From NCBI GenBank assembly GCA_964017185.1, contig OZ024871.1, positions 7,804,214 to 7,868,213 of the forward strand: DNA of 64,000 nt. The letters are read 5' to 3'. Of this stretch, positions 7,399-45,309 are shown in pieces. The stretch comes from Rugalucina vietnamica (Eukaryota > Mollusca > Bivalvia > Lucinida > Lucinidae). Every line of letters starts with the position of its first letter. Position 1 is the first letter of the stretch. A model generated the notes under the pieces. It was not told the DNA's origin. It did no database searches and saw only the letters and a list, made by a program, of their open reading frames with translations. Made by a program: the position numbers and the translations under genes.

Positions 7399-10300
7399 CT
7401 GAGTGAAAGGAAGTAATACAAACTTAATGTTATTCAAAACTGACCATAATAGCAAGTGTGAACAAGATTCAACAATGAAAAAAGATGAAAATAATGAAAA
7501 TTGGAATGTGATTCTATAAAACTTAAACTTATCTGTGACATTTTTAATTTAGAAATCTTAATATAATAAAACCATTACTTAAACAATAACTCCACTGTGT
7601 AATACCTGATCAGACTGTAAACAGTGAAGTGTCTAAAACATGCACATTTCTTTCAACATTTACTGACAAATGCATCTGACAGCGAAAGGGTAAGAATGAC
7701 ATTGGAAATACGATTAGTCATATATGCAACTACGGTCTTGTAGAGGTGTAGTGTATGCCAATGACAATGACTTGCTGTAAAGATTCATTATTTCTTACAA
7801 AAATACATAACCTTTGTACATAAAAATCATATAAGTACATGTATTTTTTGCATATGAAGTGCCATTTTAAAAGAAATCATCTTCACTGCATTTATTTTAC
7901 TTTGAAGCACACAAAAGCATATCTAAAATCAACTAGAAATGCGTGTTTGTAAAACACTATGCCCCCAACTGTATGCTTGTCCCTAAAATGGCAGTTTGTA
8001 TGATTCATTTATTTCATTCGAATGCAGTCAAATTTAATTTCCTGAAGAAGCTGTTCGGTTGCGTCTGTTTTGACCTCGATCCAGAAACACAATGTAAGCT
8101 TTTTTGCAGGCGAGTTAGAAATGAAGTAAAAAATTAAAAATGGAGTAATTTTGTCAAAATTTGACAGAGAGTCCTCAAAAGTTAACCAGGTAATCTTCTT
8201 CTCAGCCCCAACCAGCATACCAAATATGAAGGCTCTAGCTAGCTAGCTCAAATATATTTTGAGATATCTTGCACACAAGATTTTCAAAATTTGTTTTCAA
8301 AGGGACATTATTCCAACAAGGGGCATAACACGTACATGAAAAAATACAGGCCAACTATTTTTTCATGAGGAATCTGTATATGTAATTTCAAAACCCTATC
8401 ATTCACCGTTCAAAAGTTTCAAATTTCACCGAAAAAGGAAAAAATCAATGAAAATTTCAAAATTCTGTGTTTTTGTAAAAATTTGACGGAAAATTCTCAA
8501 AAGTTAATCAGGTCATCTACTTCTCAGCCCCAACAAGTGTACCAAATATGAAGGCTCTAGCTTCAATACTTTTTGAGATATCTTGCACACAAGATTTTCA
8601 AATTTTGTTTTCAAAGGGACATAGCTCAAAAAAGGGGCATAACTTGGCCATACAAAAAAATACGGGTCAACTATTTTATCATGGGGAATGTGTATATGAA
8701 ATTTCAAAACCCTAGCATTCACCGTTCAAAAGTTTCCAATTTCACCGAAAAGTGGAAAAATCAATCAAAATTTCAAAATTCCGTATTTTTGTAAAAAATT
8801 GACGGAAAGTTCTCAAAAGTTAATCAGGTCATCTACTACTCAGCCCCAACAAGTGTACCAAATATGAAGGCTCTAGCTTCAATACTTTTTGAGATATCTT
8901 GCACACAAGATTTTCAAATTTTGTTTTCAAAGGGACATAACTCAAAAAAGGGGCATAACTTGGCCATACAAAAAAAATACGGGTCAACTATTTTATCATG
9001 AGGAATGTGTATATGAAATTTCAAAACCCTAGCATTCACCGTTCAAAAGTTTCAAATTTCACCGAAAAGCGGAAAAATCAATCAAAATTTCAAAATTCCG
9101 TATTTTTGTAAAAATTTGACGGAAAGTTCTCAAAAGTTAATCAGGTCATCTACTTCTCAGTCCCAACAAGTGTACCAAATATGAAGGCTCTAGCTAAAAT
9201 ACTTTTTGAGATATCTTGCACACAAGATTTTCAAATTTTGTTTTCAAAGGGACATAACTCAGAAAAGGGGTGTAACTCGGACATGAAAAAAAATACGGGT
9301 CAACTATTTTTTCATGAGGAATGTGCATATGAAATTTCAAAACCCTAGCATTCACCATTCAAAAGTTAACACACACACAGACAGACAGACAGACAGACAC
9401 ACAGACAGACAAGCCGAAAGCAATATGCCCTTCCAACTTTTTCAAAGTTGGGGGCATAAAAACACAAAATAGCAAAGAAACAATACCAGGTATATACAAG
9501 TCATAGGCAACTAGAAAAAAAAAAATAGTGCAGTAAAACATAAAAAAATCACTATATTCACAGGAAGTGAAACAACTACATGTATGTGACTACTAGCTTT
9601 TTCACTTCTATTCTTGAAACAAATCTTAGTTTACACTGACAAAAAATGCAAGGAGTTTATGTTTTGCTAACCTAAAGAAAGGAAAGTTTTTACTTTACTT
9701 TTGGTGTTGATCCAAGGCAAGCTCATAAGCAGTTAACAATTTTGTAAAACATTTACCTGACACAGATAGTCATTACCTTTGGCTATATAATTTAGCTACA
9801 CCTGAAGACATGTAGCTCTGATGTCCTGCAGCATCCAACCTATACTAGGTCTGACGTTTGTTTGATTTATTCCTATATGTTCATGAAAATAGCTCAGGTC
9901 AAGTCTGAATGAAATTACTTCAACATACTGTTCTTGACCTTGCCTTTCAGTACTGTGAATTCGGAAATATTTGTGTGACTTTTATTTTGCAAACTTTCTA
10001 TTTCCGAATTTTCGCAGTCTTGAATTCGCAAAACGAGTGTTCTTGTAGTCTTTATGGCATACAAAGATTCTTTATATGCATGGACCTTGAATTCGCATCA
10101 ACTTTGTGAATATTTGCGAAAATTAAGTTCTTGCGAACATCCGAATTTACCGTATACAACTTGCACATTCTTTATTCTTAAACAGATAACAGCTCTTGTA
10201 CCATCTGAAGGGGAAAAATGGGTGTCAATATTATATTTTCATGACCATATTTTCATAAAAGAAATTAGACAGCAATTGACCTTTTTGCAAATGAGCCGCA

Positions 10301-13300
10301 TCATTAGAAAACAAACATTTTGCATATGCAAAAACAAAGGCACAGATCAGCTCCGCAGTAATTGCGAAGATGATCAGCGCCTTTCTTTTCGTTACATGGA
10401 TAGTACAATCCCTGTACTTCTTAAATCCAAAATTTCCAACTTCTAGCCATCTTGTGTGCTTGTACAGCTCAGTTTGTGTCAGACCAGTTTGGAAATTTTC
10501 TCATTACGCGGCGTAACTGTCAGGTTTAATGCTGGAAAGTGATGTTGGACAATACAAACAACAGGGGATTGACCGATTTCAACTGTTTGACAATGAAAGC
10601 TGTAACAACAACAACAGAAATACACATAAATGAATTGAGCCTGTGCGTGAGAAAACCAACAATTTGGGTTGTGACCAGGTCCGACACAAACCAGGCTGTT
10701 CAGTCACAGAAGCAGGCTAGAAGCTTGAAATTTCAGATTTATGAAGAAGGATTGTACTATCTGTGCAGCGAAAACAAAGGCGCTGATCAGCTTCGTGGTT
10801 AATGCGAAGCTGATCTCGTCTTTGTTTTCGCATATGCAAATTGTTGGTTTTCCCATGCGGCAGCTCAATAAGAATATTCATGGTTTTGGTATTTGGTCAT
10901 GGCACTAATTCTTGAGGCTTAACTATAACGATGAGATGAGCAAAGTTCTGTTACTATCTAAAACTAAAATACAAGAATCAAAGCTAAACCCAGGAAGACA
11001 ATACAGATTGGGGAGGTGGGGAGCAGCAAATCATGGCATCTGTGTATTAAGGAAGATACCAAATGTAGTCTGTCTTCCATCGGTTTTAAGTTTATGATGC
11101 ACCAAACTTTGTTTTAAAAACTGCAAATATTGTGCTTTATACGTTCTAACGGAAAAAGTTATTCTACTTTTTGCCATCCTAATATAAACCTATGTTTCTG
11201 TGTTTGCAACCTATAAATAACATTGATTCTGTTATGAAGATTTTTCTTGCAAGAGTGTCAAAGGTTTTTCTTATTTTTTCTCTACAGAGGCCATGTTCAT
11301 TTTGATTTGCTGGTACCCATTTTCGATATATAAATATTTAAGTATCAGTTCACTTACCTCCCGGGAAGAACCAGTCAGCATGTGTTACTATAGATTCTAT
11401 TATCAGGCTCAGGATACCAGTGTTCATCATGTTTTGACTGAAACAACAATAGAAATATGAGCCTGTGCATGAGAAAACCAACAATTTGGGTTTCCGACCA
11501 GGTCCGACACAAACCAGTCTGTACAGTCACAGAATATGGCTAGAGGCTTGAAATTTCTGATTAAAGAAGAAGAGGAAGTGTACTATCCGTGCAGCGAAAA
11601 CAAAGGCGCTGATCAGCTTCCCTGATCTGCGCCTTTGTTTTCGCCTAGGCAGATTGTTGGATTTCCCATGTGGCGGCTCATATCATAGTTTTCCTTGCAT
11701 TTGCATAAACAGAAGGAGCAGATCCAATATTCAATTCTGATACGTAATAACTATTATTGATAATTTTAAACAAGCCAACGAAATCCACTTATAGTGACAA
11801 CAGGGTACCACTACAAGTTAATGGTCAGCTGAGATTAAGGATTATCACAATTGCTATGATGCCAGGAATCATTTTAATCATGTGACCAGCTTTGACCAAT
11901 AGGGGCGAGTATAAAAAATAGCTTACCCAGCATCTCCCTCTGGCCAGATGAGATTAGGACCTATCACAATTGCTATATTGCCAGGAGTCATCTTATTCAC
12001 CTCTGACTTTTCAACTAGTTTGGCTAAAAATTTTATTAAATATCTGAAATAAAAAGTACCCCATTATTACTGGGCAATGAATACTAATAATTTGAAAAAA
12101 TATATTTGTCTACAAAACATTGGTACAAACATTTGCAAGCCACTGTAAGTGAATAGTTTTAAGATCTATACTTTTATCCACAGTAAAATGGCTTCTGCAT
12201 GCAACGAAAAAAAAAAAAAAGTTGAAAAGTTATCATTTTTGTTCACCTCTTTAAAAAATTTTAACACCACAAATTACATAATATTATATAACATACTCTT
12301 TATTGTAAGCTCACAGCATGCATATGACAAATAAGATTTCTAAATAACAGCAACATGTTTAAACATATTGTAACAAAAATACAGATTCTCTTTAAGCTTG
12401 GAAACATATGAGCCGCCTCGTGGGAAAACCAACAATGTGGTTTCCGAACAGGTCAGACACACACCGGCCTGTTCAATCACAGAAGATGGCTAGAGACTGG
12501 AAATTTTGGATTTAGAAAGTAGAGGAATTGTACTATCCGTGTAGCGAAAACAAAGGCGCTGATCAGCTTCGCAGTTACTGCATAGCTGATCTGCGCCTTT
12601 GTTTTCGCATATGCAAATTGTTGGTTCTCCCATGAGGCGGCTCATATATCAAAATCTATAACCTACCTAAAATTATCATAGTTTGGCTTTGGTAATCTAT
12701 CAACTACACACCATAACGCTTGTAATCTATCGTCATCATTTTGTCTGTAAGAAAGAAATCCAAATTTACAATATGGGAGAAAGCCATTCAATTCGATAGA
12801 TTCTGACTTGGAAAACAAACAACATTTAGGCTCAAAACGTGCATAGCTAAAACGTAAAATGCTTCCTAGTATGGCTTTACCTGATATAAAATCTTAATGC
12901 ACATTTCAAGGCCTAAATACACCAGCAAACTAGGCTGGAATATTTAGCAAGATATAAGTTAATACTTTTCAATTTCATTTTAACATCATTGATTTTGCAA
13001 ATTTACAAATCAGGTTCTCTCCCACCAAGGCTCATTCAAAAATAACTGAGCCACCACTAAAGAAAATCAACAACATGCATAGGCAAAAAACAAAGGCGCA
13101 GGTCAGCTGTGCAGTAACTGCATAGATGATCAGCATTTTTGATTTTGCTACATAGATAGTATGATGCCTCTTCTTTCTAAATCTGAAATTTCAAGCTCCT
13201 AACTGTATTTTCCTGTGGCACTACAGCCTGGTTTGTGTCGGACTTCGTCGGAAACCTAAATTATTGGTTTTCTCATGCGAATGCTCAACTTACTTCTGCA

Positions 13301-16300
13301 CAGCAGCAATAAAATCAGGATATAGTTTAAACGTTAACAGTGGTTCTGGAAGCTCTCGGAGATACTGCTTCAAAGCTCCGGCTACTGTGTGCTGATCTAG
13401 GTCTCCTGTGTCATCATCCAGATCTACACCAGCATCAAACGATGCCTGAAGATATAGGAAGAGTTTAATTTGGTTAGGTTTAACAGCCTAGTCAACAATT
13501 TTTTGTGATGTTGGGACAAAGTGTCTTTCTCTAGGACAATACATAGCCAAGGTTTGTTTGAAACCCAAGACCTCTCACTCTGAAGTCCTGTACTCTTCCA
13601 CTGTGCCACCGCGCTCCATTGCAAATACAAGATCTTGCCCCAAGTTTATAAAACTTTTTTCATGCTCAACTCAGCTGAGACTAAAATTTATCCTGCTCAT
13701 AAATGTTAAAATGCCAACAATTGTTGGCATTTTAACATTTATGAGCAGGATAAATTACCAGTTTTTGAGGTTTGAACCTGAATTTGCCACTAATTTTGAC
13801 TATTTCAGCATTTACATTTATGAGCCATTGAAATTTTAGGCTCAGCTGTGCTGAGCTTGAAAAAAGTTTTATAACCATGGTACCTTATATTGTTATATTT
13901 TGCATTAATTGAAACCAGGAACTGAGGCTATGTGTATAAGAGACATAAATACATCAACAAATATGAGCTGTGCGTGAGAAAACCAACAATTTGGGTTCCG
14001 ACCAGGTCCGACACAAACTGGGCTGTATAGTCACAGAAGATGGTTAGAGGCTGGAAATTTTGGATTTCGAATGAAGCAATATTGTACTATCCCTGTAGCA
14101 AAAACAAAGGCACTTATCAGCTTTGCGTTTACCGCGAAGCTGATCTGCGTCTTTGTTTTCGCATATGCAGATTGTTGGTTTTCCCATGCGGCGGCTCAAT
14201 TATCTATTATATATATATATATTGCTCAGTGTGTATACAGTGTACATATGTTCTTAGTTAGTCGCAATAAAAGCTCTACAGAGCTTATGTTGATTGTTGA
14301 AACATGACAATTTATAATAATCAGGCCAGTATAATTACCTTGAGTTTCTTAACTTTGGAAGCCATGCCTGCTATTCTGAACAGCCCCTCCTCGTCTAGCC
14401 CAGTCTCCAGCAGGTAACATATACATGCCTCTAGGACCTGGGCTATATCACGGTTGGTAACCCGTAGGTGCTCCTCCAGGGATATACCGTACACAGGTTT
14501 GGCAGGGTTACAGTGTAATGTTTCCTGCATCTTTGGGATAACTTTCTCAATCTCCTCGAGAGCCTGACGATGATACTTTGCTTGAGCTTCTAGAAGCTGA
14601 AAATAAACATAAAGGGATGATCAAGTTTTAGCATTTGAGCCATGACGTGAGAAAATCGAGCTTCTGTGTTTCTGACCAGGTCAGACACAAACAAGCCTGT
14701 ACAGTCACAGAGGAAGGCTAGAAAGTTGAAATTTGCAATTAAGAAGAAGATGAATTGTACTTTCTGTGATGTGAAAACAAAGTTGTTGCTCAGCTGTGCA
14801 TTTACTGCATGGCTGATCTGCAATTTTGTTTTTTTGTATACTAAAATAGATTTTTGCTCATGAATGGGCTCATATAAGACATGCATAAAGGCAGTTTTCA
14901 CTAAACCTTACTGAAAAATGAAAACATGTCTGTCTGTTCCTCTTTGATGATGAAGTCTAGCCTGGGTTCCAGCCTGATCATTTTTTCTCTTTTATTTTTT
15001 CGTTTCTTGGTCAAAAATGACAGCCTGGGGAACTTCGATTTCATTTGCCAGCGCCACCTGGATTATCCCTCAGATTCAGAGGAGAGACCAAGAAAGACAA
15101 CTCGTTCAGATAACTCTCATGTACTATAAATAGTAACCGCAGTCCCAATAGCCTCGTTCGGATTTACTGATTCAGATGCCATTTGCAACTTGTTTTTCAT
15201 TTATTTGTTAAAAATTTACAAATCTCACACTTGCTGTGAATACGGAAGACAGAAACAAGGACGCTGACGCGTTCTTTGGACATATGGAGCTAAATTCATT
15301 CCAGTGTAATGTCCAGCCTCCATGTTGATAATAGCTGATAACACAGCCTCTTTCTCGCTATCTCGCCTCGTTATCAATTTCATTACGCCACAGTAGGCTA
15401 TTATTAGATTATCGGCTTATCAAAGGAAATCACTGTCAGAGTCCCCAGGCGTCAATATCTACGGAAATCAATAACGGCTACCGATACATTAATTTTAAGT
15501 GTAATTTTTATAACGTAAGCATTGTCGAAAAAAAGAAGAAAAACTAGAATTGTCAGAGAATCTGACTATAGCCCTGCTTCTCAGCTTTTTTGCAGGGTGA
15601 AAAAAACAATGACAGGTAACTATCACAAGCTAGATCTCGTCAATATTGATGCGCATACAAAATTTGGTCTGATTATGTCAATTCGTTCTCAAGATATTGA
15701 ACGGAAACGAAAGTCTGACCTCAATAAAGGGCCATAACTCTGTCATAATTTTGCGATAAATGATGGGTAACAATCCCAAGCTAGATCTTGTCAATGATGA
15801 TGTGCATACAAAATCTGGACGGATTCTGTCAATTCAATCTCAAGATATTGAGCGGAAACAAAATTCTGAAGTCAATCAAGGGCCGTAAGTCCGTCAAAAT
15901 TTTGCGAAAAATGACGGGTAACAATCCCAAGCTAGATCTTGTCAATGTTGATGTACATACAAAATTTGGTCGGATTCTGTCAATTTGTTCTCAAGATATG
16001 GAGCGGAAATGAAATTCTGACATCAATCAGGGGCCATAGCTCCGTCAAAATTTTGCGAAAAATGACGGGTAACAATCCCAATCTAGATCTTGTCAATGAT
16101 GACGTGCATACAAAATTTGGTTGGATTCTGTCAATTTGTTCTCAAGATATTGAGCGGAAACGAAATTCTGACGTCAATCAAGGGCCATAACTCCGTCAAA
16201 ATTTTGCGAAAAATGATGGGTAACAATCCCAAGCTCGATCTTGTCAATGTTGATGTGGGCACAAAATTAGGTCGGATTCTGTCAATTCGTTCTCAAGATA

Positions 16301-19300
16301 TTGAGCTGAAACGAAATTCTGATGTAAATCAAGGGCCGTAACTCCGTCAAAATTTTGCGAAAAATGATGGGTAACAATCCCAAGCTAGATCTTGTCAATG
16401 ATTACGTGCATACAAAATTTGGTCGGATTCTGTCAATTTGTTCTCAAGATATTGAGCGGAAACGAAATTCTGACGTCAATCAAGGGCCGTAACTCCGTCA
16501 AAATTTTGCGAAAAATGATGGGTAACAATCCCAAGCTAGATCTTGTCAATATTGATGTGCATACAAAATTTGGTCGGATTCTGTCAATTCGTTCTCAAGA
16601 TATTGAGCGGAAACGAAATTCTAACGTCAATCAAGGGCCGTATCTCCGTCAAATTTTTGCGAAAAATGACGGGTAACATTCCCAAGCTAGATCTTGTCAA
16701 TGATGACGTGCATACAAAATTTGGTTGGATTCTGTCAATTAGTTCTCAAGATATTGAGCGGAAACAAAATTCTGACGTCAATCAAGGGCCATAACTCCGT
16801 CAAAATTTTGCGAAAAATGATGGGTAACAATCCCAAGCTCGATCTTGTCAATGTTGATGTGGGCACAAAATTAGGTCGGATTCTGTCAATTCGTTCTCAA
16901 GATATTGAGCTGAAACGAAATTCTGATGTAAATCAAGGGCCGTAACTCCGTCAAAATTTTGCGAAAAATGATGGGTAACTATCCCAAGCTAGATCTTGTC
17001 AATGATGACGTGCATACAAAATTTGGTCGGATTCTGTCAATTTGTTCTCAAGATATTGAGCGGAAACGAAATTCTGACATCAATCAAGGGCTGTAACTCC
17101 GTCAAATTTTGCGAAAAATGATGGGTAACAATCCCAAGCTAGATCTTGTCAATGTTGATGTGCATACAAAATTTGGTCGGATTCTGTCAATTAGTTCTCA
17201 AGATATTGAGCGGAAACGAAATTCTAACGTCAATCAAGGGCCGTAACTCCGTCAAAATTTTGCGAAAAATGACGGGTAACATTCCCAAGCTAGATCTTGT
17301 CAATGATGACGTGCATACAAAATTTGGTTGGATTCTGTCGATTAGTTCTCAAGATATTGAGCGGAAACGAAATTCTGACGTCAATCAAGGGCCGTTAACT
17401 CGGTCAAAATTTTGCGAAAAATGACGGGTAACAATCCCAAGCTTGATCTTGTCAATGTTGATGTGCGCACAAAATTTGGTCGGATTCTGTCAATTCGTTC
17501 TCAAGATATTGAGCGGAAACGAAATTCTGACGTCAATCAAGGGCCGTTACTCCGTCAAAATTTTGCAAAAAATGACGGTCAACAATCCCAAGCTAGATCT
17601 TGTCGATGATGATGTGCATACAAAATTTGGTCGGATTCTGCCAATTCGTTCTCAAGATATTGAGCGGAAACGAAATTCTGACATCAATCAAGGGCCGTAA
17701 CTCCGTCAAAATTTTGCGAAAAATGACGGGTAACAATCCCAAGCTAGATCTTGACAATGTTGATGTGCACACAAAATTTGGTCGGATTCTGTCAATTCAT
17801 TCTCAAGATATTGAGCGGAAACGAAATTCTGACGTCAATCAAGGGCCGTAACTCCGTCAAAATTTTGCGAAAAATGACGGCCAACAATCCCAAGCTAGAT
17901 CTTGTCAATGTTAATGTACATACAAAATTTGGTCAGATTCTGTCAATTGATTCTCAAGATATAGAGCGGAAACGAAATTCTGACGTCAATCAAGGGCTGT
18001 AACTCTGTCAAAATTTTGCGAAAAATGACGGGCAACAATCCCAAGCTAGATGTTGTCAATGTTGATGCATGTACAAAATTTGGTCAGATTCTGTCAATTT
18101 GTTCTTGAGATATTGAGCAGAAACAAAATGTAAAAATGCTCACGGAATGACGGAACCACGGAATGACGGAACCACGGAATCACGGAACCACGGAAGGACA
18201 GGGTGAATCCAGTATAGCCCCACTTTTCCAAAGCGGGGCTATAAAAAATATATTGACAATTGGACCCAGGCTAGATGAAGTCATAAACAGATCTTTATAT
18301 CAAACAACAATGTAAAGCATACTCACACTGAGTAGATTTTGAGTATGTTCAGCCTCTTTGGACATAAAGTGGAATATTTCTGTAGTCAAAGCGTCCTGAA
18401 ACATTGCATTTGCATTGGTTTGTCAAGGGTTAAAAATTATTCCATTAAATGAGCTGCCTCATGAGAAAACCAACAATGTGGTTTCCAAACAGGTCCGACA
18501 CAAACCAGCCTGTACACTTACGGAAGATGGCTAGAAGCTTGAAATTTTGGATTTAGAAAGTAGAGGCATTGTACTGTGTAGCAAAAACAAAGGCCCTGAT
18601 CTGCGTCTTTGTTTTCCCATATGCAGACTGTTGGTTTTCTCATCTTGTGGCACAAATTCATTTTTCATAGTGTTACAGATAAAAATTTTCTTTAAAACGT
18701 AATACATGTATGTAAGAAAAACACACAGCAAGAAATTGTAATGAGCACCAAATGAAGAAAGTCACCAAACACCATGATTAATATACTTTGAACTTGGAAC
18801 ATGTTGACATGATTTTAATTATTAAGATGGTTTATGCCATTTTGATTAACTGAGTACACACAAAATACAGTTTTCGCAATGACAAGGGGCCAGTTGTTCA
18901 AAACTTTGTGAGCTTAACGTCACCGTTAAGACCACAACTCGTTAAGTAAATGCCGACTACATAAGCAAATACACTCTTATTTTTTGTTGATGAAATGTGA
19001 TGAATTGCAAAGGATTCTCACATTTTATTAATAAGAGCTGTCGCAGGACAGCGTGCTCGACTGCTTCTGACCTTTGTCAAGCATAAGGCCAAAACCGACC
19101 AGTAACCCAAAGCATTATGCTCACATCTTTTTGCCTTGATGCAATAAGGCAAAATCACAACCATGAAAGTTAACTATAACTACCTTAGATTTAAAGGTCT
19201 CACTCATATTGTGAAAGAAGTGTGTTCATATACCAACTGAGTGCCAAGACACAAGGCAAAATCACTGAACCGTGAAAAAAGGTCACACTGACCTATAAGT

Positions 19301-22300
19301 ATTGCAGGGTCAAAGGTCTAGTGATACTTACTCATAATGTGAAAGAAAAATGATCATATACCCATTCAGTGTTGAGATATAAAGCAAAATCACTGAACCA
19401 TGAAATTAGGTCATATTGACCTATAAGTATGTTTGGGTTAAAGGTGTGGTCATACTCATTCATAATCAGAAAGAAGTATGAAAAAATACCAACTGAGTGT
19501 TGAGATATAAGGCAAAAATCACTGAACCATGAAATTAGGTCACAGTGACCCAGGACTACTTTATGGTCAAAGGTCTTGTCATACTCATACATATCGTGAA
19601 AGAAGTATGTTCATATACCAATTGAGTGCCGAGATATAAAGGAAAATCACTGAACCATGAAATTAGGTCATATTGACCTAGGACTACTTTAGGGTCAAAG
19701 GTCTTGTCATACGCAAACATAGTGTGAAAGAAGTTTGTTCATAAACCACTTGAGTGCCGAGATATAAGGCAAAGTCACTGAACCGTGAAATTAGGTCACA
19801 GTGACCTATAAGTATATTGGGGTCAAAGGTCTGGTCATACTCACTCATAATCTGAAAAAAGTATGAAAATATACTAATTGAGTGTCATGATATAAGGCAA
19901 AATCACTGAACCGTGAAATTAGGTCACAGTGACCTAGGACTACTTCAGGGTCAAAGGTCTTGTCATACGCATTCATACTTTGAAAGAAGTTTGTTCATAA
20001 ACCATTTGAGTACCGAGATATAAGGCAAAAATCACTGAAGCATGAAATTAGGTCACAGTGACCTGTAAGTATATTGGGGTCAAAGGTCTGGTCATACTCA
20101 CTCATAATCTGAAAAAAGTATGAAAATATACTAATCGAGTGTCAAGATATAAGGCAAAATCACTGAACCGTGAAATTAGGTCACAGTGACCTAGGACTAC
20201 TTCAGGGTCAAAGGTCTTGTCATACGCAAACATACTTTGATAGAAGTTTGTTCATAAACCATTTGAGTACCGAGATATAAGGCAAAATCACTGAACCGTG
20301 AAATTAGGTCACAGTGACCTATAAGTATATTGGGGTCAAAGGTCTGGTCATACTCACTCATAATCTGAAAAAAGTATGAAAATATACTAATTGAGTGTCA
20401 AGATATAAGGCAAAATCACTGAACCGTGAAATTAGGTCACAGTGACCTATAATTATATTGGGGTCAAAGGCCTGGTCGTACTAACTCATAATCTGAAAGA
20501 AGTAAGAAAATATACTAATTGAGTGTCAAGATATAAGGCAAAATCACTGAACCATGGAAAGTAGGTCAACCGACCCTTACCGTCATGACACACAAGTCAG
20601 TGTCACAAAGTCAAAAGATGAATGACCAACCATCCTCCTATGTTGTTTCTATTAAGAAATAAAAAGAAAAAAAAATCGAGGAGTTCTAGATTTTGACCTC
20701 TAGCCCCGCCCCCTGACTCCGACCCAGAGGTCCGATGTCATGGAACCTAAAGTGTATGAAGTATGAATGCTTTATGATAAGTTGTTGTCAAGATATGCCT
20801 CTTTGTAAAAGTTACACAGCAGTACATCTATTTTTTAGTGTTCTAGTTTTTAACCTCCAGCCCCACCCCACAGGCATGGACCCAGGGGCCCGATGCCATG
20901 GAATGAAACTCAACCCTACAGGGTACCTATGGTCCGAGTATGAAAGCCCTCTGATAAAAAGTTTTCAAGATATAGACTTCTAGAATACTATATCACAGAA
21001 AAGCCATTATTATTAATGGTGTTCTAGATTTTAACCTCTAGCCCCACCCCCTGGCATGGACCCAGGGATCTGATGCCATGGAATGAAAGCCGACCCTACA
21101 GGGTGTCAATGGCCCAAGTATCAATGCTTTCTGATGAGTGGTTGTCAAGATATGGACTTCTAGAAAACTTTAACATAAGAATTGCCATTTTTGAAGGTGT
21201 TCTAGATTTTAACCTCCAGCCCCACCCCCTGGCCTGGACCCAGGGGCCCGATGCCATGGAATGAAAGCTAACCCTACAGGGTATCTATGGTCCAAGTATG
21301 AATGCTTTCTAATGAGTGGTTGTCAAGATATGGACTTCTAGAAAACTTTAACGCAAGTGTGACGCGCACGCGCACGGGAACGCGCACGGGAACGGGAACG
21401 TGGATGACCGGGGTGACTGCAATAGCTCTATGCACTTCGTGCAGTCGAGCTAACAAAAATAAGAGTGTATTTGTAATATTCATGATTGAAATTTTGAAGA
21501 TCGTTAATTACAAACAATGTCGTTAATTTTGAACAACCTGGCCAAGTTATTTACCCTGGCCTGATCAACTCTGTTTTGGGCCTCTTCCAATTCTTCTTTC
21601 ACCACATCTGCCTTAGCTGATGCTGATGCCATGTTGACACCGGGGACCTGGGTCTGGCGCACAGCCTGATTCCATCTGGAGAGAGATGAGCCTTCGCATG
21701 AGAAAACCAACAATTTGCATTTGCGAAAACAAAGGTGCCTTTGTTTTTGCCACACAGATAGTACAATTCCTCTTCTACCTATATCCAAAGTTTCAAGCTT
21801 CTAGCTGTATGATGTGACTGTACAGCCTAGTTTGTGTCAGACCTGGTCGGAAACCCAAATTGTTGGTTTTCTCATGCACAGGCTAAGATTATAGAAGCTG
21901 TATCAGGGGTTGCTGACCAGTCCAATGTTACAAAAATTTTTGTCATGCTCAACTCAGCTGAGCATGTATTTAAACTGCTCAGAATTAATAAGTATTAAAT
22001 CAAAATCGATAGAACATTCAAGTTTAGATTACCAAAGCAAATAATTTATCCTGCTAACAAAAGCTAAAATGCCAACAATAATTTTTGGCACTGTAACATT
22101 TACGAACAGAGTAAATTTATTGAGCATGAAAAATATTCAGAGAGAAAGGTTTGATATAAACTGGCTTGTACAGCCCATGAAAATAGCTGTTGGCCATGTT
22201 GGTGTCCACTTTTTGATAAAGAAAGAAGGGAAAATATACCATCTAAATGAGCATGTCACAATCAATGAATGTAAACTAAACTGTTAGATACAACTAAGGC

Positions 22301-25300
22301 AGGTTTTGGATGTCATTCTTTTTTTTACTACTGTACAATGTGGAGCCGTTAATTTGCCTTCTGTGGGCTGGGTACACTCCCATTCTAAAAAATGAGCCGC
22401 AACGCTAGAAAACCGGTCTTCAGGATTTCCGACCAGGTCCGTTACAGACTGGCCTTTACACCCACAGAAGAAAGCTAGTCTTGAAATTTATGTAGAGGAG
22501 GAACAGTACTATCAAGTGTAGCGAAAACAAAGGCACTGATCAGCTTCGCAGCTGATCTGCACCTTTGTTTTCGCAAAGGCAAAAATCTGGTTTCCTCATG
22601 ACGCAGCTCAAATAGTACTAAAAGTTGTCAAAGAAACCATGCATTTTTATGTCGATGAAAAAAAGTTCCTGACATTTATAGAATCCAAAAAAACAATTTG
22701 GCAAACCATCATAAGATATATAACAGGCTATTTTGTAGCGAGGTGCAAGTAGGCCAAATTAGATCCTATGGTACTACTGAAGCAACAGCTGCAAGTCACA
22801 TGATCAAAAGACAAAACGTTATTGCTCACCTGGACTTGGCTGAGTCCATATCTAGAGTAACTTTGTTGAGAGCTTTCTTCAACTTGGTAATCTGGGGGAT
22901 CTCAACCTGTATCATAAATTATGAAGAATCCATTTAATAAAACTGAGTTATTCTGAGTTCAGCTTCACAGATAAATTAATAACTAGAAACTTCACGTATG
23001 AAGTTAGATGTTCAACATTCTTTGCAAAGGTCAAAACAGGATTGATCATCAATACAGTAGTAAAACCAGAGGACCAATGGTCCTGTAAACTCTCACCTGA
23101 GATCAGCTGCATATACCAATAAACATGTTTGAATATTATGGTATTTAACTCCAGTGCAGGGGCAGATAAGCCCTTGGGCCATTTTCTTTTTTCAGAATCT
23201 TCAACATTCTGTCCATTTGCCAATTTCCTGTTGGCTTTTTCCTTCAAATGACATTTTAACAGTTTTCCCAATTCAGATGCACAGGCAACCCATGTTGACC
23301 TTGCCATAAACTTGGTCAAGGTCATCACAGGGTCATGATTTATATATACATTGGAGTACTTTAGCCACCGATGCCTCACGCCAAGTTTCCTTGAAATCAG
23401 TCTATTGGTTTCAGAGAAGATGATTTTTGATGGGTTTTTACCATATATGGGCATGGCGGCCATCTTGGTCATGTGACCTAGATTATTTATATACACATTG
23501 ATTCCCCCATTCTATAGATGCTTCACTTAAAATTTGGCTTTGTTTGGCCAAGCGGTTTCAGAGGAGAAGACGTTTGAATATTATGGAAATATACATGTAT
23601 ATTGCCCCGGGGTGGGGGCACATGAGCCCCTGGGGTCCAATTTTTTTCAGAATCATTAATATCCAGTCCTACTGCCCATTTCCTGCAAGACTTTCACTTT
23701 AAATGACATTTTAAAAGTTTTCCCCATTCAAATGCATTGGTGACCTATGTTGACCTTCCCGTAAAATAGGTCAAGGTCATCACAGGGTCATGATTTATAT
23801 ACAAATTGTAGTGCTTGAGCCATCGATGCTTCATGCCAAGTTTCGTTGAAATCGGTCAACCGGTTCTGGAGAAGAAGATTTTTGAACGGTTTTTACCATA
23901 TATGGGCATGGCGGCCATCTTGGTCATGTGACCTGGATTTTTTATATACATATTTGTTACCCCTTCCTATTGATGCTTCACATAAAATTTCGCTTTGATT
24001 GGCCAAGCGGTTTCAGAGGAGAAGATGTTTGAATATTATGGAGATATACATGTATATTGCCCCGGGGTGGGGGCGGATGAGCCCCTGGTGCCCAATTTTT
24101 TTCAGAATCATTAATATTCAGTCCTACTGCTCATTTTCTGCAAGATTTTTCCTTTAAATGACAATTTAACAATTTTTCCCATTCAAATGCATTCGCGACC
24201 TATGTTGACCTTGCCGTAAAATAGGTCAAGGTCATCATAGGGTCATGATTTATATATACATTGTAGTGCTTGAGCCATTAATGCTTCATGCCAAGTTTGC
24301 TTGAAATCGGTCCAGTGGTTCCGGAGAAGAAGATTTTTGAAGGGTTTTTACCATATATGGGCATGGCGGCCATCTTGGTCATGTGACCTGGATTATTTAT
24401 ATACACATTGGTTCCCCCTTCCCATAGATGCTTCATGTAAAATTTGGCTTTGATTGGCCTAGCGGTTTCAGAGGAGAAGATCTTTGAAAATGGTGGGCGA
24501 CGGACGACGGACGGACGGACGACGGAGCATGGGTATACTATAAGCTCACCTTGTGAGCCTGACGGCTCAGGTGAGCTAAAAAGCTTTGTCCTACTGTTGC
24601 TTGCATTTAGGAAAAAAAGCATTTAAAGAATGTTTTCCTTTAACTCAGATATGTATTGTCTCATTAACTGACCTAAATAGATATACTCTGCAAATGTAGC
24701 AGTACAGTATAATTTAAAGTCTCATTAATGTCCAGGCATCTCTTCACTTTAATGCTTAAGCCATGTCTCTATATACACTTGGTGCTCCATACCGCCCTAG
24801 AGCCTGCAAGCTTTGGTACTGACTGGAGATGAGACCTTTTTAAAATCTCATTTTAGCCTGTGTGTGAGAAAACCAACAATTTGTGTTCCAACCAGATCCG
24901 ACACAAACCTGTCTGTACAGTCACAGAAGATGGTTAGAGGCTGGAAATTTTGGATTTAGAAAGTAGAGGAATTGTATCCGAGTAGCAAAAACAAAGGAGC
25001 TGATCAGCTTCGCAGTTACTGCGAAGCTGATCTGCGCCTTTGTTTTTGCCTAAGCAGATTGTTGGTTTTCACATGCAGTGGCTCATTTGAAATACTGCAG
25101 AAGCCTGTGATCTAACTCACCACCCCTAGATTACAAGGCCAGCGGCTTTACCACTATGCCATGGAGGCTGCTGCTTTGATATTGACGAACAGTGAGGATC
25201 TATACCATGCTGAGGGCAATATCAGACTGAACAATGTCACAAGAGACACAGATTTTTGAACATGCAAAAACACAAGCGCAGATCAGCTGGTTAGTCACTG

Positions 25301-27905
25301 TACCACTGATCAGCCACTTTTTACACTTTATGGATAGGACAATTCATGTTAAATCTGAAATTTCAAGCTTCTAGCCTTTATTCCGTGACTGTACAGGCCT
25401 GTTTGTGTCAGACTTGGTAAGAAAACCTCGTAGACCATTTTCTAGCGTCATGGCTCAGACTTACATCAAGGATTTCTTGCATCGGTTGTACCACATCTTT
25501 TTCTACGTCAAGCTCATATTGCAGATGTTTCCTGGCCAGTTCACTCTGACATTTACCGCAGGTCTCAAACATTTGACTGCAAAATAGAAGAGAACTTGTT
25601 AGGCAAGAGCTACATATAACTTTGGTAGTCATTAAAACAAAACAAATGAGCCATCTTGTGAGAAAACCAACAATGTGGTTTCCAAACAGGTCCAACACAA
25701 ATCAGGCTGTACACTCACAGAAGCAGGCTATAAGCTTGAAATTTCGGATTTAAGAAGAGGAAGTGCACTATCCGAGAAGCAAAATTTGCCGAAAACAAAG
25801 GCGCTGAACAGCTTCGTGGTTAAAAAGCTGATCTGCATCTTTGTTTTCGCATATACAGATTGTTGGTTTCACATGAGGCGGCTCAAATATTATCGCTCCT
25901 TGCTTGTTAAGTTATACATATTTTTAAACTTATTGCAAACATAAATTGCTGCTTTAATCAAAGAAAAATAATATTATTAAATATATCACCTATATAACAA
26001 AAAATAAAACTGATGCTTTTCAACATCTTCAACCTTGGTCAGGGCCAAGCAGCAAGCTTCTGTTCTGATCCTTTTTGTTGATAACATGAGCATCATGGGA
26101 AAACCAACAATCTGCATATGTGAAAACAAAGACGCAGATCAGCTTCGTGGTAACCGCGAAGCTGATCAGCACCTTTGTTTTCGCTATACCAATAGTACAA
26201 TTCCTCTTCTACTTAAATCCAAAATTTCAAGCTTCTAGCTCTTTTCTATGCTTGTACAGGTCGGTTTGTGTCTGACCTGTTGTTGGTTTTCCCACGAGGC
26301 GGCTCAGTTATGTTTGTACTGTTTCTGTACAAATGCTTAAAATAAGTATTTTAAACCAAATCTAAATCTGTATAAGCTCTGCCAGATACCTACCCCATAA
26401 CAGTATCATTGCCTAGCAATCCTGCAGATTCTATCATACTGTAACCAACTGCATGCTCGGGAATCTTTTTCTGCAAGAAAACAAACAGTTAGAAGATCTT
26501 AATTATGCAGGTTCTGAACATTTGCATGAATTTAACTCTGCAATTTTCTACATCTATTTGCCAAACAATTGGCAGGTTCTTGAATGTGCAAGAAAATACT
26601 CATGCAGTCTATAAAGATGATACTCAGTCTTTCATTGAATTCCCAAGACAAGAAATTTGTTCATATAAGCAAAAATAAGTTTCCATGAACATTTTCAATC
26701 TTATGATATACACAGTACAACTTATACAGTTATCAAATACAGGTGAACCTCATTATAACGCTATCTTTGGGGTCCATGGAAACAGACCGTATTATAAGTG
26801 AACCGTGTTATAATGAGGTTATTTACAATAGACATATATGTATAGCAAAATAATCAATTTGGGAGCCATGACATGGTCGCATTATACTGAAAACCGCACT
26901 ATAGTGAGGCGCATTATAATGAGGTTCACCTGTACATGTAATGGCTTATATATATATTACATGAAAATCTATCAAGATTGATCAGACTGATACAATCTAA
27001 GCATTGCATATACAGTCAGGGACAAAACCTAAACAGGTTATAAAAAATAACTTCATCACATTATTTTTCTTTTCTCACAAATCGGTCAAAATCGGCTACA
27101 TTTTCCTCTATTTATTTGAAATCCGCGCGGTTTTGTGTCATCAAAACGTTCTCGCGAAATACCCCAAGACGTGATACTTATTTTAACATGGTCGATATTG
27201 TGTGCAAACAATTCTACAGTAGGTCAGTAAGTTTTGACTTTATTGTGCGATTTTTGGTGAAAGGGTAAAATTCACAATTTTAAAACATGTCTCCCTATCT
27301 TAGCAGAATTTTGCCAGACGTCTCAACAATTTTCCTGGGAAGATCTGACTTTAATTCCGTGATTTCAATCAACTTATTCACTAGGCATCGTCTAAAAAGT
27401 AATACGCACATGGTTTAAAGGCGAGTGGGGTAGCGAAAAAAAATAGCTCATTCAAGTTGATACAAGTATTGTCTTATTTTGTAATACTTTCAAATTTTAG
27501 AAATAACTTAAATGAGTTAGAGAAAGAAAAGTTAACTCTAACAACCAAGAAAGGGAGATAATTCTTGATTAAGTTATTCTTTTTATAACCTGTTTAGGTT
27601 TTGTCCCTGACTGATAAAGTCTATATGATTTCATTAGAATGTATAATATGCAGAAACTACAAGACAAATTTTAGGTACAAAAAAAAAGGGGCTACTCACA
27701 AACGAGACTGCAAAGGTTGTTCGAGATTACCACCTCAAACTTAGTTTCCAACAAACTTACAGTTCTTTTATCAATATCAGTAGTCCCGGAGCTGAGTAGA
27801 CTGGCACTGACTTTCTTACACGTTGTTGTATAGACATGTTTGGCTGTGTCAACTTTCTTCTCGGACTCCTGCAGGTCATCGGACAGAACCTCAGACTTCT
27901 CAGCT
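6608..27905 (-). CDS. BAR-RhoGAP protein, ARHGAP17/ARHGAP44/SH3BP1 family (12 exons, N-terminus missing)
   Basis: Exons (high to low coordinate): 27905-27761, 26470-26394, 25576-25465, 22906-22830, 21675-21555, 18395-18327, 14596-14339, 13445-13294, 12744-12667, 12043-11927, 11437-11358, 7398-6608. Every intron has GT-AG ends and phases agree at all junctions. Joined exons read 691 codons plus stop. The first ~235 residues match the BAR coiled coil of RICH1-type proteins ([19 protein letters not shown]). Residues ~237-430 are the RhoGAP domain: GLFRIAG with the arginine finger at about 274, [40 protein letters not shown]. The tail is Ser/Thr/Pro-rich with PPPP, a possible SH3 ligand. Known family role: membrane-binding GAP for Rac/Cdc42 at junctions and endocytic membranes. 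The phase of the first exon (third codon base) implies an upstream exon coding ~17 residues, not found. Confidence 0.9.
7399..7935 (-). other. Intron 11, first part
   Basis: AT-rich intron sequence without a recognised repeat before the Helitron-like element. Confidence 0.5.
7936..9460 (+). mobile_element. Helitron-like element, family D
   Basis: The 5' end contains AAAACACTATGCCCCCAACT. The core is about four tandem units of ~315-320 bp, each with TCAAAAGTTAATCAGGTCAT, CCAAATATGAAGGCTCTAGC and GAGATATCTTGCACACAAGA. An ACAC/GACA microsatellite (9368-9412) follows. The 3' hairpin has TATGCCC...GTTGGGGGCATA arms and ends AAAA. The 5' ATGCCCCCAAC is the complement of the 3' hairpin arm, the Helentron terminal pattern. 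It sits in intron 11 of the RhoGAP gene. No protein is encoded. Confidence 0.75.
9461..9952. other. Intron 11, quiet segment
   Basis: No feature recognised. Confidence 0.4.
9953..10152. mobile_element. 200-bp MITE with TA duplication
   Basis: The imperfect inverted ends are CTGTGAATTCGGA and the complement TCCGAATTTACCG. TA lies on both sides (9951-9952, 10153-10154), suggesting a Tc1/mariner-type MITE. Internally TTGAATTCGCA recurs at 10022 and 10089. Confidence 0.6.
10292..10517 (-). mobile_element. MITE-A copy 4 (reverse)
   Basis: Reverse orientation. Left end TGAGCCGCATCATTAG; the right end is degraded (ACGCGGCGTAA). The central palindrome has point changes in one arm. In intron 11. Confidence 0.75.
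10636..10867 (+). mobile_element. MITE-A copy 5
   Basis: Full copy, forward, in intron 11. Ends TGAGCCTGTGCGTGAG and CATGCGGCAGCTCA; the central palindrome around GCTGATCAGC is well kept. Confidence 0.85.
11358..11437 (-). CDS. RhoGAP gene exon 11
   Basis: 80 bp, codons split at both ends (phase 2 in, phase 1 out). Encodes the last helix of the RhoGAP fold, [13 protein letters not shown]. Acceptor TTGTTTCAG and donor GTAAGT. MITE-A copy 6 begins 21 bases upstream of the exon, 17 bases beyond the acceptor AG. Confidence 0.9.
11458..11680 (+). mobile_element. MITE-A copy 6, close to an acceptor
   Basis: Full copy, forward: TGAGCCTGTGCATGAG to TGGCGGCTCA. One half of the central palindrome is shortened. 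It lies immediately upstream (in gene sense) of exon 11, so it occupies the usual branch-point zone. Confidence 0.85.
11824..11884 (-). pseudogene. Decayed duplicate of RhoGAP exon 10
   Basis: About 60 bp match the start of exon 10's plus-strand sequence (around 11943-12000): GAGATTA.G, TATCACAATTGCTAT and GCCAGGA are shared in order. Read on the minus strand it gives an IAIV-containing peptide like the exon's [11 protein letters not shown] but ends in a stop (TGA). It is a partial tandem duplication in the intron just downstream of exon 10. Confidence 0.75.
11927..12043 (-). CDS. RhoGAP gene exon 10
   Basis: 117 bp, phase 2 at both ends. Encodes [17 protein letters not shown] and [17 protein letters not shown], the conserved RhoGAP core with the Asn of GPNL. 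Acceptor TTTATTTCAG, donor GTAAGC. Confidence 0.92.
12409..12634 (+). mobile_element. MITE-A copy 7
   Basis: Full, forward copy (TGAGCCGCCTCGTGGG to CATGAGGCGGCTCA) flanked by TA on both sides. It ends 32 bp from exon 9 on the donor side. Confidence 0.88.
12667..12744 (-). CDS. RhoGAP gene exon 9
   Basis: 78 bp, phase 2 at both ends. Encodes [20 protein letters not shown] and NYDNF, matching the 'LQDLW..C..LP..N..NFRYL' stretch of the family. Acceptor TTTCTTACAG, donor GTAGGT. Confidence 0.88.
12745..13046 (-). other. Intron 8, quiet part
   Basis: Nothing recognised between exon 9 and the next MITE. Confidence 0.5.
13047..13287 (-). mobile_element. MITE-A copy 8 (reverse), abutting a donor
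   Basis: Reverse copy from TGAGCCACCACTAAAG to ATGCGAATGCTCA. Its right end is the base next to the GTAAGT of exon 8's donor, so the intron begins GTAAGT and then the MITE terminus. Confidence 0.85.
13294..13445 (-). CDS. RhoGAP gene exon 8
   Basis: 152 bp, phase 0 in and phase 2 out. Encodes [20 protein letters not shown], the most conserved RhoGAP block after the arginine finger. Acceptor ATATCTTCAG. The exon is sandwiched between a SINE (acceptor side) and MITE-A copy 8 (donor side). Confidence 0.93.
13466..13617 (-). mobile_element. tRNA-derived SINE (minus strand)
   Basis: Minus-strand sequence starts GGAGCGCGGTGGCACAGTGG (A-box-like). GGTCTTGGGTTTCAAAC (B-box-like) follows, then GAGAAAGACACTTTGTCCC and a tail with GTTAAACCTAACCAAATT. 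This is the layout of tRNA SINEs with a shared central block. Its 3' end is about 20 bp from the exon 8 boundary. An in-frame minus-strand open stretch running through it is not coding. Confidence 0.7.
13648..13876. mobile_element. Palindromic MITE (family P) with a perfect 72-bp palindrome
   Basis: Outer inverted ends are ATAAAACTTTTTTCATGCTC and its approximate complement; next are CTCAGCTGAG-type blocks. Positions 13685-13756 form an exact palindrome with no spacer, centred on AACAA|TTGTT. A diverged relative is at about 21935-22135. Confidence 0.75.
13964..14198 (+). mobile_element. MITE-A copy 9
   Basis: Full copy, forward, in intron 7 (TGAGCTGTGCGTGAG to ATGCGGCGGCTCA). Confidence 0.85.
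14202..14222. repeat. Short (TA)n
   Basis: A dinucleotide run next to the MITE end. Confidence 0.8.
14339..14596 (-). CDS. RhoGAP gene exon 7 (BAR end and arginine finger)
   Basis: 258 bp, phase 0 at both ends, 86 codons. It starts [18 protein letters not shown] (end of BAR) and continues through [12 protein letters not shown] to [20 protein letters not shown]. The catalytic arginine codon AGA is at 14377-14375. Acceptor TTATTTTCAG, donor GTAATT. MITE-A copy 10 starts 39 bp from the exon. Confidence 0.95.
14636..14872 (+). mobile_element. MITE-A copy 10 (diverged)
   Basis: Forward copy (TGAGCCATGACGTGAG to GAATGGGCTCA) in intron 6. Many changes in the central palindrome mark it as an old copy. 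Confidence 0.78.
14873..15559 (-). other. Intron 6, unassigned
   Basis: Mixed-composition sequence with no recognised repeat ends or conserved exon. A plus-strand frame at 14926-15129 has no recognisable domain. Confidence 0.4.
15560..18248 (+). mobile_element. Helitron-like element, family E, with a 17-unit satellite core
   Basis: The 5' end has CTATAGCCCTGCTTCTCAGC. Seventeen tandem ~151-bp units run from about 15600 to 18130, each with CTAGATCTTGTCAATG, CAAGATATTGAGCGGAAACG and AATCAAGGGCCGTAACTCCG. A decayed ACGGAA microsatellite follows (18140-18200). The 3' hairpin TATAGCCCCACTTTTCC/AAAGCGGGGCTATA ends in AAAA. The 5' CTATAGCCC matches the hairpin arm. Periodic ~83-codon frames arise from the 151-bp repeat and are not genes. 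Located in intron 6. Confidence 0.78.
18327..18395 (-). CDS. RhoGAP gene exon 6
   Basis: 69 bp, 23 codons, phase 0 at both ends: [20 protein letters not shown] and LLS, a BAR helix matching 'DQLAADMYNFMAKEGEY' of human ARHGAP17. Acceptor AATGTTTCAG, donor GTGAGT. Confidence 0.88.
18450..18654 (+). mobile_element. MITE-A copy 11
   Basis: Forward copy (TGAGCTGCCTCATGAG to CATCTTGTGGCACA) in intron 5, 54 bp from exon 6. One half of the central palindrome is deleted. Confidence 0.8.
18655..19022 (-). other. Intron 5, with a possible TIR half
   Basis: AT-rich. GGGGCCAGTTGTTCAAAACT at 18889 resembles a common transposon end but no partner end was found. Confidence 0.35.
19023..21455 (+). mobile_element. 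Helitron-like element, family F, with two different core arrays
   Basis: The 5' end is AAGAGCTGTCGCAGGACAGC followed by GTGCTCGACTG. The first array has about 11 units of ~126-131 bp (19260-20580), with ACTGAACCGTGAAATTAGG and GGTCAAAGGTCT. The second has about four units of ~180 bp (20685-21360), with CCCCACCCCCTGGCATGGAC and GTTGTCAAGATATG. Then comes an ACGGGA/ACGCGC-rich stretch and the 3' hairpin ATAGCTC...GTGCAGTCGAGCTA plus AACAAAA. GCTCGACTG at the 5' end is the complement of the 3' arm. In intron 5. Two nested elements instead of one cannot be excluded. Confidence 0.7.
21555..21675 (-). CDS. RhoGAP gene exon 5
   Basis: 121 bp, phase 2 in and phase 0 out. Encodes [15 protein letters not shown] and [15 protein letters not shown] of the BAR domain. 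Acceptor TCTCTCTCCAG, donor GTAAAT. Only the 11-base pyrimidine tract plus AG separates the exon from MITE-A copy 12. Confidence 0.88.
21687..21886 (-). mobile_element. MITE-A copy 12, abutting an acceptor
   Basis: Reverse copy (TGAGCCTTCGCATGAG to CATGCACAGGCTAA) with a shortened palindrome centre. Its left end touches the pyrimidine tract of exon 5. Confidence 0.85.
21935..22135. mobile_element. Palindromic MITE family P, diverged copy
   Basis: Shares TCATGCTCAACTCAGCTGAG and ATGCCAACAAT with the copy at 13648-13876, but the central palindrome is no longer exact. Ends near GAGCATGAAAAAT. Confidence 0.65.
22393..22610 (+). mobile_element. MITE-A copy 13
   Basis: Forward copy (TGAGCCGCAACGCTAG to CATGACGCAGCTCA), intron 4. 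Part of the central palindrome is missing. Confidence 0.8.
22830..22906 (-). CDS. RhoGAP gene exon 4
   Basis: 77 bp, phase 0 in and phase 2 out: [20 protein letters not shown] then DSAKS, matching 'VEIPNIQKQRKQLARLVLDWDS' of ARHGAP17. Acceptor GATACAG, donor GTGAGC. Confidence 0.9.
23063..24580 (+). mobile_element. Helitron-like family B copy 2
   Basis: Same ends and ~460-bp core as copy 1 (664-2200), clearly closely related. Microsatellite of GACG units near 24500; 3' hairpin GCTCACC...GGTGAGC then TAAA. In intron 3. Minus-strand frames inside are artefacts. Confidence 0.78.
24581..24853 (-). other. Intron 3, unassigned
   Basis: Nothing recognised. Confidence 0.4.
24854..25085 (+). mobile_element. 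MITE-A copy 14
   Basis: Forward copy (TAGCCTGTGTGTGAG to CATGCAGTGGCTCA), intron 3, well-preserved centre. Confidence 0.83.
25100..25168 (-). mobile_element. tRNA-like SINE head fragment
   Basis: Minus strand GCCTCCATGGCATAGTGGTA is A-box-like. GGTGAGTTAGATCAC sits in the B-box position but is diverged. Resembles the head of the SINE at 31039-31199. No tail was found. Confidence 0.5.
25250..25457 (-). mobile_element. MITE-A copy 15 (reverse), next to a donor
   Basis: Decayed copy lacking a clear left end. The right end (CTAGCGTCATGGCTCA) stops 7 bases from exon 3, just outside the GTAAGT of its donor. Confidence 0.7.
25465..25576 (-). CDS. RhoGAP gene exon 3
   Basis: 112 bp, phase 2 in and phase 0 out: [20 protein letters not shown] then [17 protein letters not shown], matching 'MLETCGDAENQLALELSQHE' of human ARHGAP17. 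Acceptor ATTTTGCAG, donor GTAAGT. Confidence 0.92.
25647..25885 (+). mobile_element. MITE-A copy 16
   Basis: Forward copy (TGAGCCATCTTGTGAG to CATGAGGCGGCTCA), 70 bp from exon 3, intron 2. Confidence 0.83.
26087..26306 (-). mobile_element. MITE-A copy 17 (reverse)
   Basis: Reverse copy (TGAGCATCATGGGAAAACC to CCACGAGGCGGCTCA), intron 2, with a nearly perfect centre around GGTAACC. Confidence 0.85.
26394..26470 (-). CDS. RhoGAP gene exon 2
   Basis: 77 bp, phase 0 in and phase 2 out: [20 protein letters not shown] then NDTVM. Matches 'KKLPLTALAQNMQEAS' in position and length. Acceptor TTTCTTGCAG, donor GTAGGT. Confidence 0.85.
26740..26932. mobile_element. Pogo/Tigger-like MITE, 193 bp
   Basis: The ends CAGGTGAACCTCATTATAA and TTATAATGAGGTTCACCTG are exact inverted repeats flanked by TA. 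The CA..AACCTC.TTATAACG motif is typical of pogo-type elements. Internal inverted blocks (ACCGTATTATAAGTG and ACCGCACTATAGTGA) make it fold. A remnant is at 4510-4628. Confidence 0.82.
27013..27613. mobile_element. 601-bp TIR element
   Basis: The ends CAGTCAGGGACAAAACCTAA and the exact complement extend to about 35 bp (through CAGGTTATAAAAA). Flanks are ATA on both sides. No transposase. Tc1/mariner-like by terminal CAGT and TA, but unproven. In intron 1. Confidence 0.78.
27761..27905 (-). CDS. RhoGAP gene exon 1 of those visible (BAR start)
   Basis: 145 bp: one base completing a codon, then 48 codons [20 protein letters not shown]...DIDKRT. This matches ARHGAP17 from its residue ~18 (AEKTEVLSEDL) in exact length. 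Acceptor GTTTCAG, donor GTAAGT. The missing upstream exon should code for an MKKQF-type start. Confidence 0.92.
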
Positions 27906-30191: not shown

Positions 30192-30427
30192 TGTGCCGCC
30201 TCATGGGAAAACCAACAATTTGCATAGGCGAAAACAAAGGCGCAGATCAGCTTCGCAGTAACTGCGAAGCTGATCAGCGCCTTTGTTTTCGCTACGCAGA
30301 TAGTACAGTCCCTCTACTTCCTAAATACGAATTTTCATGTTTCTAGCTGTCTTCTGTGACTGTACAGGCCAGTTTGTGTTGGACCTGTTCAGAAACCATA
30401 TTGTTGGTTTTCCCACGAGGCGGCTCA
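30192..30427 (-). mobile_element. MITE-A copy 18 (reverse)
   Basis: Reverse copy, young-looking: the centre is an exact palindrome GCGCAGATCAGCTTCGCAGT with its inverted half apart from the orientation-specific base. Confidence 0.87.
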
Positions 30428-30907: not shown

Positions 30908-31009
30908 CAGCCACGTCATGAGTAAACCAGATTTTTGCCCATGCAAATACAAGTTTGTGCTTGACTTGGTTGGATATCCTGAAGACCGGTTTTCTCGCGT
31001 CATGGCTCA
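30908..31009 (-). mobile_element. MITE-A copy 20, internally deleted
   Basis: Only the two ends remain (CAGCCACGTCATGAG and TCGCGTCATGGCTCA); the central palindrome is gone. Confidence 0.65.
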
Positions 31010-37704: not shown

Positions 37705-37746
37705 ATCGCTATTTACAGTGGGCTCTAAAACATTAAAACACTTGTC

Positions 37747-38853: not shown

Positions 38854-38883
38854 CTCTATTTACTTCCTTGCTTCTTGTATTAT

Positions 38884-39596: not shown

Positions 39597-39639
39597 AATT
39601 CAAATATTTTAGAAGATTACAACAGTATTTGAGATAAGC

Positions 39640-45235: not shown

Positions 45236-45309
45236 GAAACTTAAGTCTTAGAGTTTTTGGTCTTGAAAGACAGACTCAAACTTCTTTAAAGCAAATTATT
45301 TAGTTATGG

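Follow-up and report, generated by a model that had tools for sequence, protein, structure and literature searches.

MITE-A, an abundant miniature transposon of a lucinid clam, appears enriched beside splice donors

Across the genome, copies of MITE-A, a miniature inverted-repeat transposable element of the clam Rugalucina vietnamica, that lie immediately beside splice donors are no rarity, and they appear to be enriched there. The placement is described here for one gene encoding BAR and RhoGAP domains, which lies in a stretch of 64 kb (the window, by which we mean the whole of the DNA that was analysed), and for matches to a donor motif across the 1.09-Gb genome.

Results

MITE-A is about 237 bp long, with terminal inverted repeats (TIRs) of about 31 bp and an inner palindrome, and its full copies run TGAGCC...GGCTCA. 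A profile built from 14 copies (nhmmer) has 23 non-overlapping matches across the window at an E-value of 1e-5, part of them fragments, and the TIR-end pattern has 120,406 exact matches (60,302 + 60,104) in the genome and 0 when reversed, which we take to mean that there are probably tens of thousands of copies. The counts for genome and window pool subfamilies, one of which, differing in the inner part of the TIR (AAAACCGG), was recognised by eye at 30915-31009, 22393-22610 and 2981-3198. Among 72 full copies from the window and 20 fetched stretches, 57 are flanked by an exact 2-bp target site duplication (TSD) and the other 15 are without an exact repeat; the duplicated bases are TA in 20 cases, AA in 16, TT in 14, AT in three and others in four, consisting of A and T only in 53 of the 57. 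The target is A[WW]T: of 114 symmetrised half-sites, 107 conform to A[..]T. MITE-A is short, has TIRs and a target site duplication and is present in high copy number, as MITEs are, and judged by length alone it would be too short to encode its own transposase; we classify it as a very abundant MITE of the DNA-transposon type that makes a 2-bp duplication at A[WW]T. Tc1/mariner elements are known to duplicate TA in every case, a rule from which MITE-A departs, its TSD being TA in just 20 of 57 copies. Two viral contigs share an 18-base word of the TIR, and a profile search of the stretches of them that were examined found no MITE. MITEs take up a considerable share of bivalve genomes, and one survey left them unclassified (PMC10294476).

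When the window was scanned against Rfam, no family reached its gathering score, the weaker microRNA matches lying far below the cut-offs. The inner palindrome of MITE-A (24983-25051, 30226-30294) weakly matches mir-5595 in this way, and small RNAs are conceivable; a separate palindrome at 13677-13765, with similar sequence by eye near 21940-22140, likewise has weak microRNA matches far below cut-off. Long open frames on the minus strand at 34443-45275 look LINE-like by eye, and two 120-aa pieces of them had no Pfam match at 0.001.

The gene that carries the insertions lies on the minus strand from 27905 to 11358 and was traced as 11 exons, all with concordant phases, whose splice product of 428 aa matches the Pfam families BAR (2.8e-33) and RhoGAP (5.2e-49), in that order. 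The majority of its 51 matches to solved structures are RhoGAP proteins, and those to BAR are SH3-containing GRB2-like proteins; domain order together with the sequence suggests that this is presumably a member of the ARHGAP17/44 (RICH) family. In-phase splicing places the first traced exon (BAR domain) at 27761-27905, exon 2 at 26394-26470, exon 3 (BAR, also supported by Pfam) at 25465-25576, exon 4 at 22830-22906, exon 5 (BAR, also Pfam) at 21555-21675, exon 6 at 18327-18395, exon 7 at 14339-14596, exon 8 (RhoGAP, also Pfam) at 13294-13445 with its donor GTAAGT at 13293-13288, exon 9 at 12667-12744, exon 10 at 11927-12043 and exon 11 at 11358-11437, all on the minus strand. These exons are the traced part of the gene, its 5' and C-terminal exons lying outside the set; a 271-aa frame at 6611-7423 on the minus strand, downstream of exon 11, is perhaps its C-terminal part. 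The ten traced introns measure 489-3730 bp and also hold sequence other than MITEs, some of them with two MITEs, and repeats make up 57-63% of their non-MITE bases. There are tandem arrays in intron 3 (23238-24488, 455-bp unit), intron 5 (19199-20568, 128-bp unit, and 20759-21352, 178-bp unit) and intron 6 (15608-18129, 16.7 copies of a 151-bp unit).

The ten introns contain 12 MITE-A copies, at 6 to 379 bp from the nearest exon. The closest, copy 8 (13047-13287, minus strand, placed by nhmmer and its flanks), is 6 bp from the donor of exon 8 with GTAAGT alone between them, and the degenerate copy 15 (25224-25457, minus strand, aligned over 25253-25456 with its left end placed by eye) is 7 bp from the donor of exon 3. 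Copy 12 (21687-21885, minus strand, nhmmer) is 11 bp from the acceptor of exon 5, the gap being TCTCTCTCCAG, and copy 6 (11458-11680, plus strand, TSD TA) is 20 bp from the acceptor of exon 11. Copy 7 (12409-12644, plus strand, TSD TA) follows at 22 bp from the donor of exon 9, copy 10 (14636-14872, plus strand) at 39 bp from the acceptor of exon 7 and copy 11 (18450-18654, plus strand) at 54 bp from the acceptor of exon 6. An earlier note on this DNA had described these seven placements, and our measurements bear it out for copies 8 (directly after GTAAGT), 15 and 12 and agree within a base or so for copy 6, which it put at 21 bases; the range of 32-54 bases that it gave for exons 9, 7 and 6 holds for the last two, the copy at exon 9 being nearer. 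Absent from its list are five copies in the same introns: copy 16 (25647-25885, plus strand) at 70 bp from the acceptor of exon 3, and copies at 26087-26306 (minus strand, 87 bp from the donor of exon 2), 13964-14198 (plus strand, 140 bp from the donor of exon 7), 22393-22610 (plus strand, 219 bp from the donor of exon 4) and 24854-25085 (plus strand, 379 bp from the donor of exon 3, with copy 15 in between). Copies 15 and 16 are opposite in orientation and form an inverted pair around exon 3 (25224-25885, at 7 and 70 bp) that might promote the formation of circular RNA or the skipping of that exon.

In this gene MITE-A copies are nearer to exons than chance under every null tried. The tests used MITE-collapsed coordinates (by which 379 bp becomes 145 bp) with 13048 as the start of copy 8, and excluded a weak fragment in intron 4 (22147-22244, E-value 7e-4) that is more than 450 bp from both exons. 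Seven copies lie within 54 bp of an exon, where the null predicts 1.04 if all intron positions are allowed (P 2e-5) and 2.25 if the tandem arrays are masked (P 0.0025); when the null is restricted to A[WW]T sites the expectations are 1.07 (P 1.5e-5) and, with arrays masked, 2.30 (P 0.003). Shuffling each copy inside its own intron with arrays masked gives 2.86 (P 0.009), and masking all detectable repeats at two thresholds gives 2.28 (P 0.003) and 2.10 (P 0.002). These P values concern one gene and are post hoc, and they are not clean tests because the gene was chosen for its striking look.

For the genome as a whole we used as a proxy for donors the strict 8-mer AGGTRAGT outside the TIR end, and as a control its reverse complement, which has identical composition, in the same place. 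At 0-30 bp outside the TIR end there are 168 matches to the motif (84 + 84) and 66 to the reverse complement (31 + 35; binomial P 2e-11), whereas in a far bin at 300-330 bp the numbers are 90 (40 + 50) and 92 (38 + 54), giving a Fisher odds ratio of 2.6 for the two-by-two table (P 4e-6). The near control of 66 can be taken as the chance level because a true donor in that orientation so close to the TIR end would imply a MITE within an exon; the far control of 92 does not measure chance alone, since many of its sequences look like opposite-strand exons with true donors. The excess over background is then about 102 near and about 24 far, a ratio of 4.3 (95% interval 1.9 to 172); the probability that there is no far excess at all is 3%. 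Only one of the 11 donors of the BAR and RhoGAP gene matches AGGTRAGT, and since the three donors that have a MITE 22 bp away or less all differ from it, the genome-wide count is independent of the cases in the window; it agrees in direction with the excess within the gene.

The matches themselves are of several kinds. By eye, the flanks of the near matches listed (100 of the 168) differ from one another, with at least one match inside another repeat, and in the far bin at least 17 of the 90 are other repeats, of three families, with six more beginning with degenerate MITE-A about 45 bp or less from the motif, which makes the far bin a noisy baseline. A gap of 6-15 bp is found for 46 of the 100 near donors listed and 24 of the 66 controls, a difference on which we do not rely as support. 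From the 100 listed of the 168 we fetched 20 near sites, comprising all 19 at gaps of 0-7 bp and one of four at a gap of 8 bp; frames from ten of them, scanned against Pfam, gave ASF1 (2e-14, gap 2) and Sec7 (3.1e-6, gap 0), together with a ZER1-like match below the cut-off (2.6e-4, gap 6), and the other seven of the ten had no Pfam match. In the Sec7 gene the MITE starts directly after GTAAGT, and in the ASF1 gene two bases later. At two of the 20 fetched sites (L042 and L043) the motif appears to the eye to follow another MITE rather than an exon, so that not all matches are splice donors.

Random insertion too would give an excess on the exon side, because the first bases of an intron cannot already be transposon. 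In simulations of random insertion, with transposon lengths of our own choosing, the near/far ratio was 1.24, 1.54 and 1.88 at repeat fractions of 0.3, 0.45 and 0.6, and introns that end before 330 bp could raise it further. Bases common to other stretches, a lower bound for repeats, make up 6-55% of each fetched stretch, 30% of the window as a whole and 48% of the segment that holds the gene. The suggestion of the earlier note that MITE-A could target sequences at exon edges survives the donor-side part of a comparison with random placement, the donor motif being commoner at 0-30 bp than in the mirror orientation (168 against 66) or the far bin (90), with part of this excess, possibly all, perhaps a statistical effect and the random prediction reaching the low end of the interval. 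Overall the data lean towards a real donor-side enrichment for one motif, AGGTRAGT, and are compatible as well with the simpler effect of random insertion; targeting of MITE-A near donors is likely rather than proven.

Discussion

The best explanation overall, and one that we consider probable, is that a MITE inserting at A[WW]T landed in introns that already existed, became enriched near donors through a preference for linker DNA, and is neutral there. The clearest single case for the order of events is copy 8, whose flanks are AC/AC (GT/GT on the gene strand), so that its 2-bp TSD is positions +5/+6 of the exon 8 donor; AC occurs only this once among the 57 TSDs. Because the duplicated bases are the GT of the donor itself, and GTAAGT is left intact, the donor predates the insertion. 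Copy 15 at exon 3 may share the +5/+6 bases as its TSD, to judge from an alignment made uncertain by its degenerate far end. MITE-A would thus have inserted into introns already present, and, by analogy, the most likely mechanism would be a transposase that prefers the accessible, AT-rich nucleosome-linker DNA just outside exons. A self-folding element would leave the adjacent splice site usable, and selection would then not remove it. It is tempting to go further and to suppose that exon edges, especially the first ~20 intron bases past donors, attract the transposition machinery, with repeated insertion at splice-site bases and occasional duplication of them while splicing stays intact. MITE-A would then be a transposon of animals that is a single step short of an introner; this we put forward only tentatively.

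Possible as well, although we rather doubt it, is that a high-copy MITE simply inserted at random in repeat-saturated introns, was not purged near exons, and looks remarkable in a gene picked by a reader for its appearance. With 120,406 TIR-end matches close placements are inevitable, repeats already fill more than half of the non-MITE intron bases of this gene, and the lower bound of the observed genome-wide ratio (1.9) touches the prediction of the simulations; against this, the repeat-masked tests within the gene still give P 0.002-0.009, and the ratio of 4.3 itself is above the simulated range, with an interval that extends down to 1.9.

It appears highly unlikely that the MITEs act in splicing, whether through a hairpin that hides or presents splice sites or through a TIR end (GGCTCA followed by T) that serves as a branch point. 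The hairpin is certainly stable, the copy at 12409-12644 folding at -127.1 kcal/mol compared with -63.9 +/- 4.7 for shuffles (z -13.3), and GGCTCAT, found 21 nt upstream of exon 11 and 12 nt upstream of exon 5, fits a loose branch-point consensus, a likeness that chance may account for. We folded RNAs of about 650-700 bases, with 15 shuffles for each of three donors and, with shorter flanks, 10 shuffles for each of four acceptors. The unpaired probabilities with the MITE, without it and with it shuffled were 0.27, 0.24 and 0.37 for the exon 8 donor, 0.61, 0.44 and 0.39 for the exon 3 donor, 0.39, 0.33 and 0.31 for the exon 9 donor, 0.51, 0.27 and 0.30 for the exon 5 acceptor, 0.31, 0.28 and 0.30 for the exon 11 acceptor, 0.43, 0.24 and 0.38 for the exon 7 acceptor, and 0.36, 0.29 and 0.35 for the exon 6 acceptor. 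The ranges are 0.27-0.61 with the MITE, 0.24-0.44 without it and 0.30-0.39 for the shuffled means, and five of the seven sites differ from their shuffles by no more than about one standard deviation, the sites at exons 3 and 5 being more open by ~1.7 and ~2.6. The suggestion in the earlier note that the MITE hides or presents splice sites is accordingly left without support: hiding is rejected, as none of the seven sites is more buried when the MITE is present, all being slightly more open, and presentation of the exon 3 donor and the exon 5 acceptor is possible in these models, in which the shuffles were few.

Introners are mostly of the DNA-transposon type, some with TIRs and TSDs, are found at splice sites and mostly in aquatic hosts, and are predicted to prefer nucleosome linkers (PMC9860276). 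That MITE-A is itself an introner, having made these introns and either provided their splice sites or duplicated them, is the least credible reading despite this resemblance in TIR, TSD and proximity to splice sites, because copy 8 duplicated bases of a pre-existing donor inside the intron, rather than joining exon to exon, and because the introns, at 489-3730 bp, are too large, hold other sequence and in some cases two MITEs, with each copy near one splice site only. An introner is the whole intron (PMC9860276) and carries or recruits both splice sites, whereas MITE-A sits near one end, inside larger introns.

The closest described element that we found is 'repeat 1' of the haemoglobin genes of another clam, Lucina pectinata, a MITE-like sequence of 210 bp with 30-bp imperfect TIRs and a 77-bp palindromic segment (PMC4732748), which by its description has the same build as MITE-A. 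In the section describing repeat 1, its authors found no TSD, in contrast to the 2-bp TSD of MITE-A, and remark in passing that repeats lie nearer to one end, 3' or 5', of several introns of these genes; that section gives no splice-site statistics, unlike the present analysis (PMC4732748). A literature search for MITEs crowding splice sites in molluscs found none besides this report, where the positions are given in passing. The same question of transposon density against distance from exons has been asked of human and mouse introns, in which transposable elements, SINEs and all DNA elements alike, are underrepresented up to 50-100 bp from exons, a scarcity that its authors put down to selection against the disruption of splicing (PMC3088655). 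The donor-side excess of MITE-A is in the opposite direction from this mammalian depletion (PMC3088655), and the AGGTRAGT counts speak against an avoidance of donors of the human and mouse kind, for that motif. If MITE-A does crowd donors, its copies would provide many natural tests of how far the intron sequence beside a donor can be dispensed with, and may point to a possible route from MITE to introner in animals.
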